Assembly (NCBI GenBank): GCA_024123915.1
Contig: CP099650.1
Coordinates: forward strand, 186,001 to 250,000
Source: Oxalobacteraceae bacterium OTU3CAMAD1
GTDB taxonomy: Bacteria; Pseudomonadota; Gammaproteobacteria; Burkholderiales; Burkholderiaceae_D
DNA: 64,000 nucleotides
Direction of reading: 5' to 3'
Below are positions 2-30,309 of the stretch, piece after piece. Made by a program: the position numbers and the translations under genes. Positions within the stretch are counted from its first letter, which is position 1; each line of letters starts with the position of its first letter. The notes below the pieces were generated by a model that saw only the letters and a program-made list of their open reading frames with translations, ran no database searches and was not told the origin of the DNA.

Positions 2-544
2 TGGTACACCTCGCGCGCACACGGCGAGCGCATCGTCGCGCGGCAGGTCGAGGCGCTCGAGGCCAGCCGCGAAATCTTCACCGGCGCGGGCACCGTGCGC
101 ACGCTCAGCCCCGGCACCACGTTCACGCTGGACGGCCAGGCATCGCTGGACGCCGGCGATGCCGACGGGCGCAACTTCGCCATTACGCGCGTGCTGCACC
201 TGGCGCACAACAACCTGGTCGCCGGAATCCGCGACGCGGCCGAGCGGGCGTTGGGCGCCAGCGCGCTGGAACAAACCATCGCGCGCGAAATGGCCGGCGG
301 CCTGCACGCGGTCGGCGCCGGCAAGGGCGAACGGCCGCTATACCGCAACCGCATCGACGCCATCCGCAGCAAGGTGCCTTACCGCAGCAGCGATGTGGAC
401 GGCCACGGCCTGCTGCTGCATCCCAAGCCGACCGTGCGCGGGCAGCAGACCGCCATCGTCGTGGGACCGGCCGGCGCGGCCATCCATACCGACCGCGATC
501 ACCGTATCAAAGTACAGTTCCACTGGCAGCGCGGCGAGCTGTAG
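2..544 (+). pseudogene. vgrG: VgrG middle fragment (type VI secretion spike), truncated at both ends
   Basis: Read in frame from the second base, this encodes the middle of a VgrG spike protein. It runs from the end of the gp27-like part (HGERIVARQ) through the conserved YRNRIDAIRSKVPYR stretch to IHTDRDHRIKVQFHWQRG, where the gp5-like OB fold normally starts. It stops two residues later at TAG, whereas a full VgrG continues for several hundred residues. There is no start codon in the window. The missing N-terminal half of what looks like the same gene is on the opposite strand immediately to the right. The two halves meet at a Tyr-(Ser/Thr)-Ser codon run, so this is an inverted piece of one gene or an assembly fold-back. 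Family identity is secure; the structure is not. Confidence 0.8.
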
Positions 545-25489: not shown

Positions 25490-26386
25490 ATGGCTCCACT
25501 AGACTATCGCGCGCTTGCCGTGCTGGACGCAGTCGCCAGCCACGGCAGCTTTGAAAAAGCCGCGACCGCGCTCGGCATCAGCCAGTCGGCCGTCTCGCAG
25601 CGCATCAAGGCGCTGGAAGACGCCGCCGGCCGCCTGCTGATCGTGCGCGGCCAGCCGGCCGTGCCGACCGGGCTGGGCCAGCGCCTGGTCTCGCACCACC
25701 GCAGCGTCAAATTGATGGAAGCCGCGCTCGACATCGATCTCGGCAACAAGGTTAGCATGCCGGAGATTTCCCTGGCGGTGGACGCGGCCAGCCTGGCCAC
25801 CTGGTTCCCGCTGAGCTTGCAACCGCTGCTGTCGCCGCCGCGTTGTCAACTCAACATCCAGCAGGCAACGCGCGACATGGCCCTGCATCTGGTGCGGGAG
25901 GGTAGCGTATTCGGCAGCATCGCCGCCGCCCAGCCGCACGGCGAGCACACGGCAAACGGTCCCGAGGTGACGCCGCTGGGCAAGCTGCGCTATGTCTGCG
26001 TGGCCACGCCGGTGTTCGCCGGCCACTGGTTCGGCGACGGCTTCTCGGCCGAGGCGGCCCGGCTGGCGCCGGCGGTGGTGTGCGACCGCGACATGATGGC
26101 CGGCTTCCTGCGCGAGGTGCTCGACCTGGACGGCCCGTATCCGCACCACACGGTGCCGCTGTCGCCGGCCAGCGCCGAGTGCATCCACGGCGGCCTGGCC
26201 TACGGGCTGATGCCGCTGTCGCAGGCGACCCGGCCGCTGGCCGACGGCCGTCTGGTGGATCTGGCGCCGGGCAGGCATGTCGATGTGGCGCTGAACTGGC
26301 ACGCGTGGAATCTGGACACGCCATTTACGCGCGCGCTCAGCGAGCAAATCATCGCCACCGCGCGGCGCTTTCTGTTGCAGCCTTAA
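25490..26386 (+). CDS. LysR family regulator, ArgP-like
   Basis: 298 residues. The N-terminal winged helix-turn-helix (LDYRALAVLDAVASHGSFEK, then ALGISQSAVSQRIKALED) is close to the ArgP/IciA type. The effector domain follows (LNIQQATRDMALHLVREGSV). ArgP senses Lys/Arg and normally controls the exporter argO/lysE, but here the divergent partner is a flavoprotein disulfide reductase, so target and ligand may differ. The gene ends convergently with priA, their stop codons sharing two bases. Confidence 0.85.
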   Translation: MAPLDYRALAVLDAVASHGSFEKAATALGISQSAVSQRIKALEDAAGRLLIVRGQPAVPTGLGQRLVSHHRSVKLMEAALDIDLGNKVSMPEISLAVDAASLATWFPLSLQPLLSPPRCQLNIQQATRDMALHLVREGSVFGSIAAAQPHGEHTANGPEVTPLGKLRYVCVATPVFAGHWFGDGFSAEAARLAPAVVCDRDMMAGFLREVLDLDGPYPHHTVPLSPASAECIHGGLAYGLMPLSQATRPLADGRLVDLAPGRHVDVALNWHAWNLDTPFTRALSEQIIATARRFLLQP

Positions 26387-28416
26387 ATATCGAGCGGATC
26401 GACTTCCAGCGACCATTTCACGCGGCTTTTCATCTCGCGCAGGGTCCACAGCCAATCCTTTAGGAACGCCTGCAGCATCGGCCGCGACGCCGATTCGACC
26501 AGCAACTGCGCGCGGTCGACATTGTGCACGCGGGTCATGCTCATCGGGATCGGATCGTTGATCGTGATGCCCGGATGCTCGACGCAATCGCGCGCGATAG
26601 TCAGGAACTCGATGGCGGTCGCCAGCTCGGGCGCCTCGGCCCGCAACAGCGCCTGGAACAGGTACGGCGGCAGCGCGGCCTGCTCGCGCTCCTCCAGCAG
26701 CGCGGACGCGAAGTGGTCGTAATCGTGGTGCACCACCGCGCCGTACAGCGGATGCTGTGGATAGCGGGTCTGGATCAGCACCTCGCTGATGCTGCCGCCT
26801 TCCGTGCGCCCGGCGCGGCCGGCGCGTCCCGCCACCTGCATCAGCTGCGCGAACAGCCGCTCGCTGGCGCGGTAATCCTGCGAGAACAGCGCGGTGTCCG
26901 GATTGAGAATGCCGACCAGCGTAAGCTTCTTGAAGTCGTGTCCCTTGGCGACCATCTGGGTGCCGATCAGGATATCGACCTCGCCGCGATGGACGGTGTC
27001 GAAGGCCTCCTGTGCGCTGCCCTTCTTGCGGGTCGAGTCGGCGTCGATGCGCAGCACGCGCGCCTCCGGGAACAGCGCCTGCAGGCCCTCCTCGACGCGC
27101 TGGGTGCCGCGTCCCAGCGGTTGCAGGTCGACGTTGCCGCAGGTCGGGCAGTGGCGCGGAATGCGCAGCTCCAGGCTGCAGTGGTGGCAGCGCAGCCGGT
27201 GCTCGGGACGGTGCAGCACCATGAACGAGGTACAGCGCGTGCACTCGCTGATCCAGCCGCACGATTCGCAGCAGATCACCGGCGCGTAGCCGCGTCGGTT
27301 GAGGAACAACAGCGATTGCTCGCCGCGCTCCATGCGCTGCTTGATGGCGGCGATCAGTCCCGATGTCAGGCCGTCCTTCGGCTTGTCGCGCTCCATGTCG
27401 ATCAGTTTCACCTGCGGCAGCACGGCGTTCTTGACGGCGCGCTCGCGCAGTTCCAGCTTGCGGTAGCGGCCCGACTGCGCGTGGTGCCAGCTCTCGAGCG
27501 ACGGCGTGGCCGATCCGAGCACGATCGGAATCGCCAGCTGCCAGGCGCGCCACACGGCCAGGTCGCGCGCCGAATAGCGCAAGCCTTCCTGCTGCTTGTA
27601 CGACGGGTCGTGCTCCTCGTCGATGACGATCAGCTTCAGGTTCGGCAGCGAGGCCAGGATCGCCAGCCGCGTGCCGAGCACGATGCGCGCCCGGCCCTGG
27701 TGCGCGGCCAGCCAGTGCAGCATGCGCTCGCCTTCGGACAGGCTGCTGTGCAGGGTCGCCAGCATCACGCCGGGGAAGCGCGCGCGGATATTGCCTTCCA
27801 ACTGGGGCGTCAGGTTAATCTCGGGCACCAGGATCAAGATCTGCGCATCCACGTCGCGCGCCAGCACTTGCGCGCACGCCTGCAGATACACCTCGGTCTT
27901 GCCGCTGCCGGTCACGCCGTACAGCAAAGTGGGCGTGAAACCCACGGCGCCGCCGATGGCGTCGGCCGCCTCCTGCTGCGAGGGATTGAGCACCGGCATG
28001 TTGAGCGGCGTGCCGTCGTGGGGGGCGTCGAGCTTGGCCAGCTTTTTCAGCGCCTTGTCCAGGGTGAGCGGGGTGGGCGCGCGCAGGTTCTTCGGCAAGC
28101 CCGGCAGGGCCACCTCGCCCAACGGACGCTGATAATAGTCGGCGGCGAAGCCGGCCAGCGCCAGCCATTGCGCCGACAGCGGCGCCAGCTGGCTGCGGAT
28201 CGCTAGCGCGTCCTTCAATTTCCCGTCGGGCACATCGGTCTCGGCGGCGACGCCGACGATCAGCCCCATCACCTCGCGCGGGCCGAACGGGACGAACGCC
28301 AATTGGCCGACTTGCGGCTGTTCCGCCGCATCGCAATACCAGCGGTAGTCGAAAATGGCATTCAGCGGCGTGTCGAGCGCCACCTGAAGAATGCAATGGT
28401 GAAAGAGGCCCTGCAT
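26383..28416 (-). CDS. priA: Primosomal protein N' (PriA helicase)
   Basis: About 677 residues. N-terminal 3'-OH-binding domain (ILQVALDTPLNAIFDYRW), Walker A LLYGVTGSGKTEVYLQ, DEEH box LIVIDEEHDPSYKQQEG, and eight zinc cysteines in two groups (CCESCGWISECTRC, then CHHCSLELRIPRHCPTCG). The helicase C-terminal part has GTQMVAKGHDF and QVAGRAGRAGR. It restarts stalled forks by loading the primosome. ATG 28416 (MQGLFHHC) fits the family N-terminus; a longer frame reaches 28449. Upstream lies the DnaA-box region; the gene converges with the ArgP-like gene without a visible terminator. Confidence 0.95.
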   Translation of the reverse strand: MQGLFHHCILQVALDTPLNAIFDYRWYCDAAEQPQVGQLAFVPFGPREVMGLIVGVAAETDVPDGKLKDALAIRSQLAPLSAQWLALAGFAADYYQRPLGEVALPGLPKNLRAPTPLTLDKALKKLAKLDAPHDGTPLNMPVLNPSQQEAADAIGGAVGFTPTLLYGVTGSGKTEVYLQACAQVLARDVDAQILILVPEINLTPQLEGNIRARFPGVMLATLHSSLSEGERMLHWLAAHQGRARIVLGTRLAILASLPNLKLIVIDEEHDPSYKQQEGLRYSARDLAVWRAWQLAIPIVLGSATPSLESWHHAQSGRYRKLELRERAVKNAVLPQVKLIDMERDKPKDGLTSGLIAAIKQRMERGEQSLLFLNRRGYAPVICCESCGWISECTRCTSFMVLHRPEHRLRCHHCSLELRIPRHCPTCGNVDLQPLGRGTQRVEEGLQALFPEARVLRIDADSTRKKGSAQEAFDTVHRGEVDILIGTQMVAKGHDFKKLTLVGILNPDTALFSQDYRASERLFAQLMQVAGRAGRAGRTEGGSISEVLIQTRYPQHPLYGAVVHHDYDHFASALLEEREQAALPPYLFQALLRAEAPELATAIEFLTIARDCVEHPGITINDPIPMSMTRVHNVDRAQLLVESASRPMLQAFLKDWLWTLREMKSRVKWSLEVDPLDI

Positions 28417-28454
28417 AGATCCAATCACATGAAATTCGGTGCTGTGCAAGACTG

Positions 28455-28484
28455 CACAGTTTTTGTGGATAACTTTGTGGACAA
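28455..28484. repeat. 30-bp direct repeat with DnaA boxes, left copy
   Basis: Thirty bases from CACAGTTTTTGTGG to TTTGTGGACAA are identical to 28889-28918. The unit contains a perfect DnaA box (TTATCCACA on the minus strand, 28464-28472) and a one-mismatch box (TTGTCCACA, 28476-28484). Confidence 0.9.
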
Positions 28485-29082
28485 GAGAATCTTAATCTCC
28501 GGAAACCAATCACTTAACAGTTGGTAGCCGTCGGAACCGGGCAAATATTCGAAATTATTTTCTTTTAAAATCAATCACTTGGAAAAACCCTCCTAGGAGA
28601 CGGAGAAATGCGCTTTTTTCTCTCCGGCTGTGCATAAGTGAAGTATTTCCGATTAATTTTTAACGATTTCCAACACTTTCCGGGGCGTTTTAATGGCTAC
28701 CGGAAAGTACAACGTTCGGCCGATAACGACAAATTTTATACAGGCCGCGCCCAAATGGTTTGCGCGCACATAACTTCGTTATCAAGCCAGCCATTTTGCC
28801 TAAAAATCGTGCAGCGCAACATAGACCTCATGCAAAACAACAACATTATGGCTAAGTCACGGTTTACTAAGTACTTTTATTTTTTATCCACAGTTTTTGT
28901 GGATAACTTTGTGGACAATGAAGAAATAAACTCGCGGAAGCCCGACTTATGGGTTTACAACCAGTACACAGCCTCATCCAGCAAGCCGAAATTACAATTA
29001 CAAATCAACGACTTAGAACCAACGCCCGGGCGAGGAAAATAGTGCTGCCTGTTATTCTTGCACCAAAAAAAATTGTGCATAA
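28464..29082. other. DnaA-box cluster in an AT-rich gap: candidate oriC or DnaA-binding locus
   Basis: The region between priA and hemE (28417-29159) has no credible gene. It contains five perfect TTATNCACA boxes: 28464-28472, 28629-28637, 28884-28892, 28898-28906 and 29074-29082 (all minus orientation except 28884). Two one-mismatch TTGTCCACA boxes lie at 28476-28484 and 28910-28918. Boxes 28884 and 28898 form a tight inverted pair. AT-rich tracts at about 28541-28590 and 28866-28888 could be an unwinding element. Flanking genes include the fork-restart factor priA. dnaA, dnaN, gyrB and rpmH are not in the window. The box density far exceeds chance, but origin activity is inference. Confidence 0.6.
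28889..28918. repeat. 30-bp direct repeat with DnaA boxes, right copy
   Basis: Identical to 28455-28484 over 30 bp. This copy is preceded by TTATC, which creates an extra perfect plus-strand DnaA box (28884-28892) facing the minus-strand one across a 5-bp spacer. Confidence 0.9.
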
Positions 29083-29110
29083 GTCGGTTTGCTTTCCTCT
29101 GCGCACCAAT

Positions 29111-29143
29111 GAAAATGGGGCACGCTCCATCGGAACGTGCCCC
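29111..29143 (-). terminator. Intrinsic terminator after hemE
   Basis: An 8-bp stem GGGGCACG / CGTGCCCC (29117-29124, 29136-29143), followed on the minus strand by ATTTTCATT. It starts 17 bp after the hemE stop and so shields the DnaA-box region from hemE transcription. Confidence 0.75.
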
Positions 29144-29159
29144 ACGGGTTTGCGGTAGC

Positions 29160-30242
29160 TCAAGATGCGCGCTGGGCCTTGCTGTAGGCGTGAACAGCGT
29201 CCACCATGGCCGCCACATTCTCCGGCGGCGTGAACTGGGAGATGCCGTGGCCCAAATTAAATACGTGTCCATGGCCGTTTTCCGGCTTACCGAAGGCGTC
29301 CAGCACCTTGTGCACTTCGGCGCGGATCTGCTCGGGGCTGGCGAACAGGATCGCCGGGTCCAAGTTGCCTTGCAGACCGACCTTGTGGCCGACCAGCTTG
29401 CGCGCCTGCGTCAGGTTCACGGTCCAGTCCAGGCCTACCGCGTCGGCGCCGATGTCGGCGATCTGCTCGATCCACTGGCCGCCGCCCTTGGTGAAGACGA
29501 TGGCCGGAATCTTAACGCCGTCCTTGTCCCTCTTCAGCAGCGACACCACCTGGCGCATGTAATCGAGCGAGAACGCCTGGTAGGCGCCGTCGGCCAGCGC
29601 GCCGCCCCACGAGTCGAAGATCATCACCGCCTGGGCGCCGGCGTCGATCTGGGCGTTCAGGTACTCGGCAACCGCCTTGGCATTGATGGCCAGGATGTGG
29701 TGCATCAGGTCCGGACGGTTGTACAGCATCTTTTTGATGGTGTGGAACTCGCGCGAGCCCTGGCCTTCGACCATATAGCACGCCAGCGTCCACGGGCTGC
29801 CCGAGAAGCCGATCAGCGGCACGCGGCCGTTCAATTCCGTGCGGATCTGCGTGACCGCCTTGAATACATAGTCCAGCGACCCCAGTTCCGGTGCGCGCAG
29901 CGCCAGCACGTCGGCCTCGGTTTTGAGCGGACGCTCGAACTTGGGGCCTTCGCCTTCGACGAAATACAGGCCCAGGCCCATCGCGTCGGGCACCGTCAGG
30001 ATGTCGGAGAACAGGATGGCGGCGTCCAGCGGGAAGCGGTCCAGCGGCTGCAAGGTCACTTCGGTGGCGTAATCGGGATTGGTGGCCAGGCCCATGAAGG
30101 AGCCCGCTTTTTGGCGCGTGGCGCGGTATTCCGGCAGGTAGCGCCCCGCCTGACGCATCAGCCATACCGGGGTGTGCTCGGTCGGCTGGCGCAACAACGC
30201 ACGCAAAAAGGTGTCATTCTGAAGCGGAGCAAATTGTGGCAT
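29160..30242 (-). CDS. hemE: Uroporphyrinogen III decarboxylase
   Basis: 360 residues. The substrate-binding N-terminus [20 protein letters not shown] is diagnostic, with [19 protein letters not shown] holding the catalytic Asp, and [16 protein letters not shown] and FDSWGGAL further on. It converts uroporphyrinogen III to coproporphyrinogen III in cytosolic heme synthesis. ATG 30242 gives the usual [17 protein letters not shown] start; a TTG nine bases upstream is less likely. A GATAAT is visible on the minus strand about 30 bp upstream as a possible -10. The pairing with priA is common in betaproteobacteria. Confidence 0.96.
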
Positions 30243-30309
30243 GAAAGGCAATCAAAAAGCGGGGAAAGGGCTATTATCGCACTCCGCGCCGTTTTTTTTC
30301 GGCGGACGC

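Follow-up and report, generated by a model that had tools for sequence, protein, structure and literature searches.

According to passages of PMC5742627, PMC4585315 and PMC10380432, the datA locus of Escherichia coli lies near oriC and needs DnaA boxes 2, 3 and 7, which run in one direction, together with a single IHF site at an optimised spacing. In passages of PMC4585315 and PMC4245941, DARS2 needs IHF, and it also needs Fis. DARS-like sequences are described as conserved in many proteobacteria (passage of PMC10380432), and the excerpts differ on whether DARS2 is conserved in beta- or gammaproteobacteria (PMC5742627) or in gammaproteobacteria (PMC4245941, PMC8682772). The DnaA-box clusters of Bacillus subtilis and Streptomyces repress untimely initiation and lie outside oriC, as the element reported here probably does; the passage concerned describes no IHF-spaced geometry for them (PMC5742627), and B. 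subtilis is stated to have no IHF (excerpt of PMC13220808). In the literature passages, E. coli is the sole organism for which a datA locus and its IHF geometry are described. The literature matches listed, from a search that most subscription papers fall outside, hold no description of the hemE-priA element or of a betaproteobacterial datA.

In the E. coli MG1655 sequence, datA box 2 is followed by an IHF site (−) at +65 and by box 3, in the same direction, at IHF+97, with an inverted one-mismatch box at +109. The cores of DARS1 and DARS2 have boxes at 0(+), 14(−) and 26(−). Beyond the IHF match nearest to the DARS2 core, a perfect box runs in the opposite direction, and a consensus scan of DARS1 found no IHF match within one mismatch. 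E. coli oriC has a known IHF site; the scan missed it and is therefore not exhaustive.

The window analysed here is a 64-kb stretch of Oxalobacteraceae bacterium OTU3CAMAD1 (C1:186001-250000 of CP099650.1, a single contig of 7,481,272 bp). The site of interest, at C1:214.4-215.2 kb, is the gap between hemE and priA (Table 1), which an earlier note on this DNA had proposed as a candidate replication origin or DnaA-titration site. Its description of the gap as non-coding and AT-rich was borne out (43% G+C, against 57-69% across 2-kb windows of the window), as was its remark that dnaA is distant (C1:13-1389). The gap was measured from the hemE stop to the priA ATG, which was picked from the sequence (an in-frame TTG at 28449 is an alternative); the hemE start codon is that given by the ORF tool. 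Because hemE and priA both point left, the gap is flanked by co-directional genes. The hemE gene shares 98% identity with its counterpart in Duganella sp. CF517, and we infer a terminator-like function for the 13-bp inverted repeat 3′ of it.

The five perfect TTATNCACA boxes of Table 1 are the only five in the window, where 0.39 would be expected by chance, and five were reached in none of 100 dinucleotide shuffles. Together with the two one-mismatch TTGTCCACA boxes they span 619 bp (28464-29082), in agreement with the seven boxes in about 620 bp that had been counted earlier, and the inverted pair described at that time (28884-28892/28898-28906) does have a 5-bp spacer. The gap also holds two copies of a 30-bp exact repeat. 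Perfect matches to the IHF consensus occur just twice in the window, at 28569 and 29003, and these too are separated by 434 bp, in register with this repeat; 0.24 such sites were expected in the window, and two were reached in 3 of 100 shuffles. The co-direction of the genes, the repeat and the two IHF sites in register had been missed by the earlier note.

Read from hemE, these features fall into two modules, each with a single box, an IHF site 56-67 bp further on (67 in module A, 56 in module B) and tandem boxes at IHF+97 and IHF+109. Same-direction boxes flank a single IHF site in both modules, the +97 box having one mismatch and the +109 box being perfect. Module A also has an inverted TTATCCACA at IHF+123. 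The 0/14/26 triple is exact in module A, and its third box is degenerate in module B.

Table 1. Features of the hemE-priA gap and its flanking genes (positions in the window).
Feature	Positions	Strand	Remarks
hemE-priA gap	28417..29159		non-coding, 743 bp, 43% G+C; whole element inside
priA, primosomal helicase	26383..28416	-	Pfam PriA domains; downstream of element
hemE, uroporphyrinogen decarboxylase	29160..30251	-	Pfam URO-D 454.9 bits; upstream of element
13-bp inverted repeat, terminator-like	29116..29144		just downstream of hemE
30-bp exact repeat, copy 1	28455..28484	+	sequence repeat
30-bp exact repeat, copy 2	28889..28918	+	434 bp from copy 1
Module A, hemE-proximal	28884..29082	-	box, IHF site, tandem boxes, inverted box; strict-pattern match
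Module A single box TTATGCACA	29074..29082	-	perfect; place of datA box 2
Module A perfect IHF consensus AATCAACGACTTA	29003..29015	+	consensus scan
Module A one-mismatch box TTGTCCACA	28910..28918	-	IHF+97, place of datA box 3
Module A perfect box TTATCCACA	28898..28906	-	IHF+109
Module A inverted perfect box	28884..28892	+	with the 28898 and 28910 boxes, 0/14/26 spacing of DARS core
Module B, priA-proximal	28464..28637	-	box, IHF site, tandem boxes
Module B single box TTATGCACA	28629..28637	-	perfect
Module B perfect IHF consensus AATCAATCACTTG	28569..28581	+	consensus scan
Module B one-mismatch box TTGTCCACA	28476..28484	-	IHF+97
Module B perfect box TTATCCACA	28464..28472	-	IHF+109

The box-IHF-box orientation is common to this element and E. 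coli datA, both of which are non-coding, with a spacing of 65/97 in E. coli and of 67 or 56/97 here. The strict pattern matched the fetched E. coli K-12 datA locus once, and no match was found in the fetched E. coli oriC, DARS1 and DARS2 loci. On the other hand, datA is single, whereas two modules are present here. The inverted box of datA at +109 is replaced by a strong same-direction box, with a further inverted box at +123 in module A. The surroundings differ as well: datA lies between the glyVXY tRNAs and queG, about 10% of the genome from oriC, and the present element lies between hemE and priA, about 3% from the likely oriC. In a MAFFT alignment, the partner of E. coli box 3 was the +109 box and not the +97 box; the +97 box is therefore a counterpart of datA box 3 chosen by spacing.

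The conservation of the module was assessed in 101 hemE loci, comprising the best 80 from a public species collection, 20 further genomes and the window. The counts refer to the 93 loci with priA next to hemE, among which near relatives are not independent. Eight loci were dropped (L132, L149, L170, L175, L206, L209, L210 and L211); in L132 and L170 the sequence stops soon after hemE, yet boxes are present in both. Of the 93 gaps, 76 showed the complete geometry around a perfect IHF site and 17 did not; the number rose to 88 when one IHF mismatch was allowed. The 76 gaps hold one module (50 gaps), two (25) or three (one). Three modules were seen in Herminiimonas fonticola (L163), where the hemE-priA gap is 1173 bp long. 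Dinucleotide shuffling of the 93 gaps (20 sets) gave a mean of 0.0 with the geometry, and shuffles of the window's own gap contained a module in 0 of 2000 cases. Among the 116 perfect IHF sites, a perfect upstream box was present at 113, and a box with at most one mismatch was present at +108..110 in 111 and at +96..98 in 95; at control offsets a box was found in 1/116.

The strict pattern matched 59 of 399 genomes of the order Burkholderiales, representing 38 of 159 genera, and 7 of 369 genomes at class level, the own genome being included in both counts. The reversed pattern gave 0 matches in every order- and class-level row, and the 340 order genomes without a match may owe this to the strictness of the pattern or to absence of the element. 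Outside the genus, the position of the site is not kept: in one such genome (G075) the hemE-priA gap with boxes lies at 143 kb and the antipode of a three-mismatch dif-like site near 1.70 Mb. Two more modules (3267.4 and 3268.6 kb) were seen in the own genome at C1:3267366-3268801 (L011), 1.24 kb apart and toward the terminus.

Judged from the sequence, the gap may best be read as a doubled datA-like DnaA control element that would serve IHF-dependent DnaA inactivation and would not be an origin, a reading to which we give a probability of roughly 0.55. IHF would bend the DNA between the flanking DnaA boxes, and ATP-DnaA bound to these boxes would form head-to-tail contacts leading to ATP hydrolysis (the DDAH reaction). 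In 12 genomes of the genus, the element is 187-281 kb away from the likely oriC (2.9-4.1% of the genome); it would therefore be duplicated shortly after initiation and would help to shut DnaA down when a round of replication is under way. This near-origin argument rests on oriC being at the inverted-pair site described below, which is disputed by the KOPS distribution. A datA-like role would fit the position and the geometry best. Several observations count against it: a strong box at +109 takes the position occupied by an inverted box in E. coli datA, the +97 box is one mismatch off in 92 of 116 cases, and the module copies at 3267-3269 kb are far from the likely origin. In addition, the boxes at 28884(+), 28898(−) and 28910(−) are spaced like the DARS1 and DARS2 cores, which points to reactivation. 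The different position in G075 and the 340 unmatched order genomes also weigh against it.

The main rival is a DARS-like element, in which the box triple and IHF would promote ADP release from DnaA and thus its reactivation; we consider it unlikely. The 0/14/26 spacing of module A matches both E. coli cores, and the triple is kept, with at most one mismatch per box, in 71 of the 116 modules. The perfect IHF sites would suit the IHF requirement of DARS2, and the wide conservation of DARS-like sequences cited above is also in its favour. However, neither the DARS1 nor the DARS2 locus is hit by the strict pattern, and the IHF geometry differs, DARS1 having no IHF match and DARS2 its nearest comparable one at 87 instead of 97, as far as the non-exhaustive scan goes. 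Unlike DARS1 and DARS2, the element has a strong same-direction box beyond IHF and a place near the likely oriC, and this place suits datA better. The triple is also imperfect in module B, where its third box is degenerate. Elsewhere in the genome, a mid-replichore site at C1:6038301-6039358 (L020) contains two perfect IHF sites and four inverted pairs of boxes at a distance of 14 bp, with one mismatch in one member. From its sequence, this site at 6038.3-6039.4 kb is a better DARS2 candidate than the hemE-priA element. A combined view, which we likewise regard as having little probability, is that the module is an older, unsplit DnaA switch with a datA half and a DARS core, from which the datA and DARS loci of E. 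coli would descend. One element would then inactivate or reactivate DnaA depending on IHF and the stage of the cell cycle.

The proposal of the earlier note that the gap is the chromosomal origin (oriC) is improbable. The gap does share with oriC a cluster of densely spaced perfect DnaA boxes, IHF sites and AT-rich DNA, and a passage of PMC2864759 places the skew transition of C. metallidurans some 90 kb away from dnaA, next to a 213-nt stretch that carries three perfect boxes and may be a counterpart of the gap. However, the gap differs from oriC in having no DnaA trios and in not being antipodal to dif, and a better candidate lies 221 kb away. The hemE-priA gap contains no run of three TAG/AAG trios, and any such run was found in 1 of 93 gaps.

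In the better candidate (C1:436151-437200; L036:6151-7200), AT-rich DNA and TAG trios occur twice, each time with an inverted pair of DnaA boxes (158-159 bp apart). In 820 kb of the own genome, trio runs beside a DnaA box were found only here, at 436.43 and 436.97 kb. There are parS-like sites at 449.2 kb, about 12 kb away, with two weaker ones in 1.2 Mb sampled elsewhere, and a dif-like site at 4.20 Mb has its antipode at 459 kb. The inverted-pair pattern was found in 13 of 15 single-contig genomes of the genus, singly or twice within some 3 kb; it was absent from the other two (G046 and G049) and from all seven order-level genomes tried. For one of the 13 (G055) the precise length was lacking, so it was omitted from the distance comparison, leaving 12 genomes. 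In 12 of 12, the inverted-pair site was nearer to the dif antipode than hemE-priA or dnaA was, with mean distances of 33 kb, 208 kb and 369 kb, respectively. oriC is most likely at 436.4-437.2 kb.

In the own genome, the minimum of a 6-mer classifier (correct on 57 of 58 arm stretches, each left out in turn) was at 412 kb, that of a synonymous-codon model at 409 kb, and the GC3 change-point at 420 kb, not at 215 kb. These three positions are some 17-28 kb away from the inverted-pair site, compared with some 195-205 kb for hemE-priA. Above the minimum, hemE-priA stood at 1162 and the inverted-pair site at 186 for 6-mers, and at 139 and 25 for codons. An origin at dnaA was ruled out by KOPS (27 log units), composition and the dif antipode.

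In the own genome, KOPS conflict with the dif antipode, k-mers and codons. KOPS, of which 118 of 128 had the expected polarity in the sampled arms, switch there at 168-277 kb, an interval that contains the hemE-priA site; the score peaks at this site and is 14.8 log units lower at the inverted-pair site. In a second genome of the comparison (G043), hemE-priA lies at 1.553 Mb and the inverted-pair site at 1.834 Mb, and no trios were found beside a box in the stretch searched by the same rule. The k-mer and codon models applied to it were trained on the own genome; with these, the values above the minimum for hemE-priA and the inverted-pair site were 116 and 239 (4-mers), 310 and 362 (6-mers) and 30 and 50 (codons), which favour hemE-priA, whereas the 8-mers (676 and 469) do not. 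KOPS also went the other way in G043, being 32.1 log units below the best at hemE-priA and 24.7 at the inverted-pair site, with the switch (C1:1640000-1660000) 94 kb from hemE-priA and, as in the own genome, well removed from the likely oriC. The polarity measures of this genome point to 1.64-1.70 Mb, with the optimum at neither candidate site. We conclude that the polarity signal around the likely oriC is disturbed.

Two other intervals were rejected as origins. In the KOPS-switch interval of G043 (1.63-1.67 Mb), no trio-box site was seen, and no 500 bp contained more than two near-boxes. The boxes of the glmU cluster (422.85-423.37 kb) all share one strand, no IHF match or trio-box site was found, and counts vary among relatives. 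This cluster (C1:422854-423370; L035) has four perfect and five one-mismatch boxes between a convergent Lrp-like gene and glmU, and is present in part of the genus.

Taken together, the hemE-priA site is probably not oriC. It is about equally doubtful that the gap is a DnaA/IHF-regulated priA promoter region, which would tie primosome supply to the replication cycle. The element is directly upstream of priA, with the nearest boxes about 48 bp from the ATG. At the six sufficiently long loci without priA after hemE by tblastn (L149, L175, L206, L209, L210 and L211), no perfect box was found in the 800-1000 bp that follow hemE, and the boxes may therefore go with priA. However, the same modules occur at 3267-3269 kb, where a priA copy is possible, and one to three copies with a fixed IHF-box spacing exceed what a promoter needs. 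Least probable of all is that the gap would merely titrate DnaA and play no catalytic part. The five perfect boxes in 742 bp (the top density in the 820 kb examined, matched in the genome by five boxes at 6038.5-6039.2 kb) speak for such a sink, but the conserved IHF sites and fixed spacing would be needless for it. The titration proposal of the earlier note thus survives as far as a DnaA control site is concerned, and the layout supports an IHF-dependent element of the datA/DARS class instead of a sink.

If the datA-like reading is true, the element would be a near base-pair-exact datA counterpart in many Burkholderiales, with a fixed gene neighbourhood and, in the genus, a narrow range of distances from the likely origin, and these harmless soil bacteria would offer a convenient system in which to study it. 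In this genus, the likely oriC is about 320-440 kb from dnaA (12 genomes), and densely clustered DnaA boxes do not necessarily mark an origin, even where KOPS seem to switch. IHF-timed control of DnaA would then be an old and general device, reaching far beyond E. coli.
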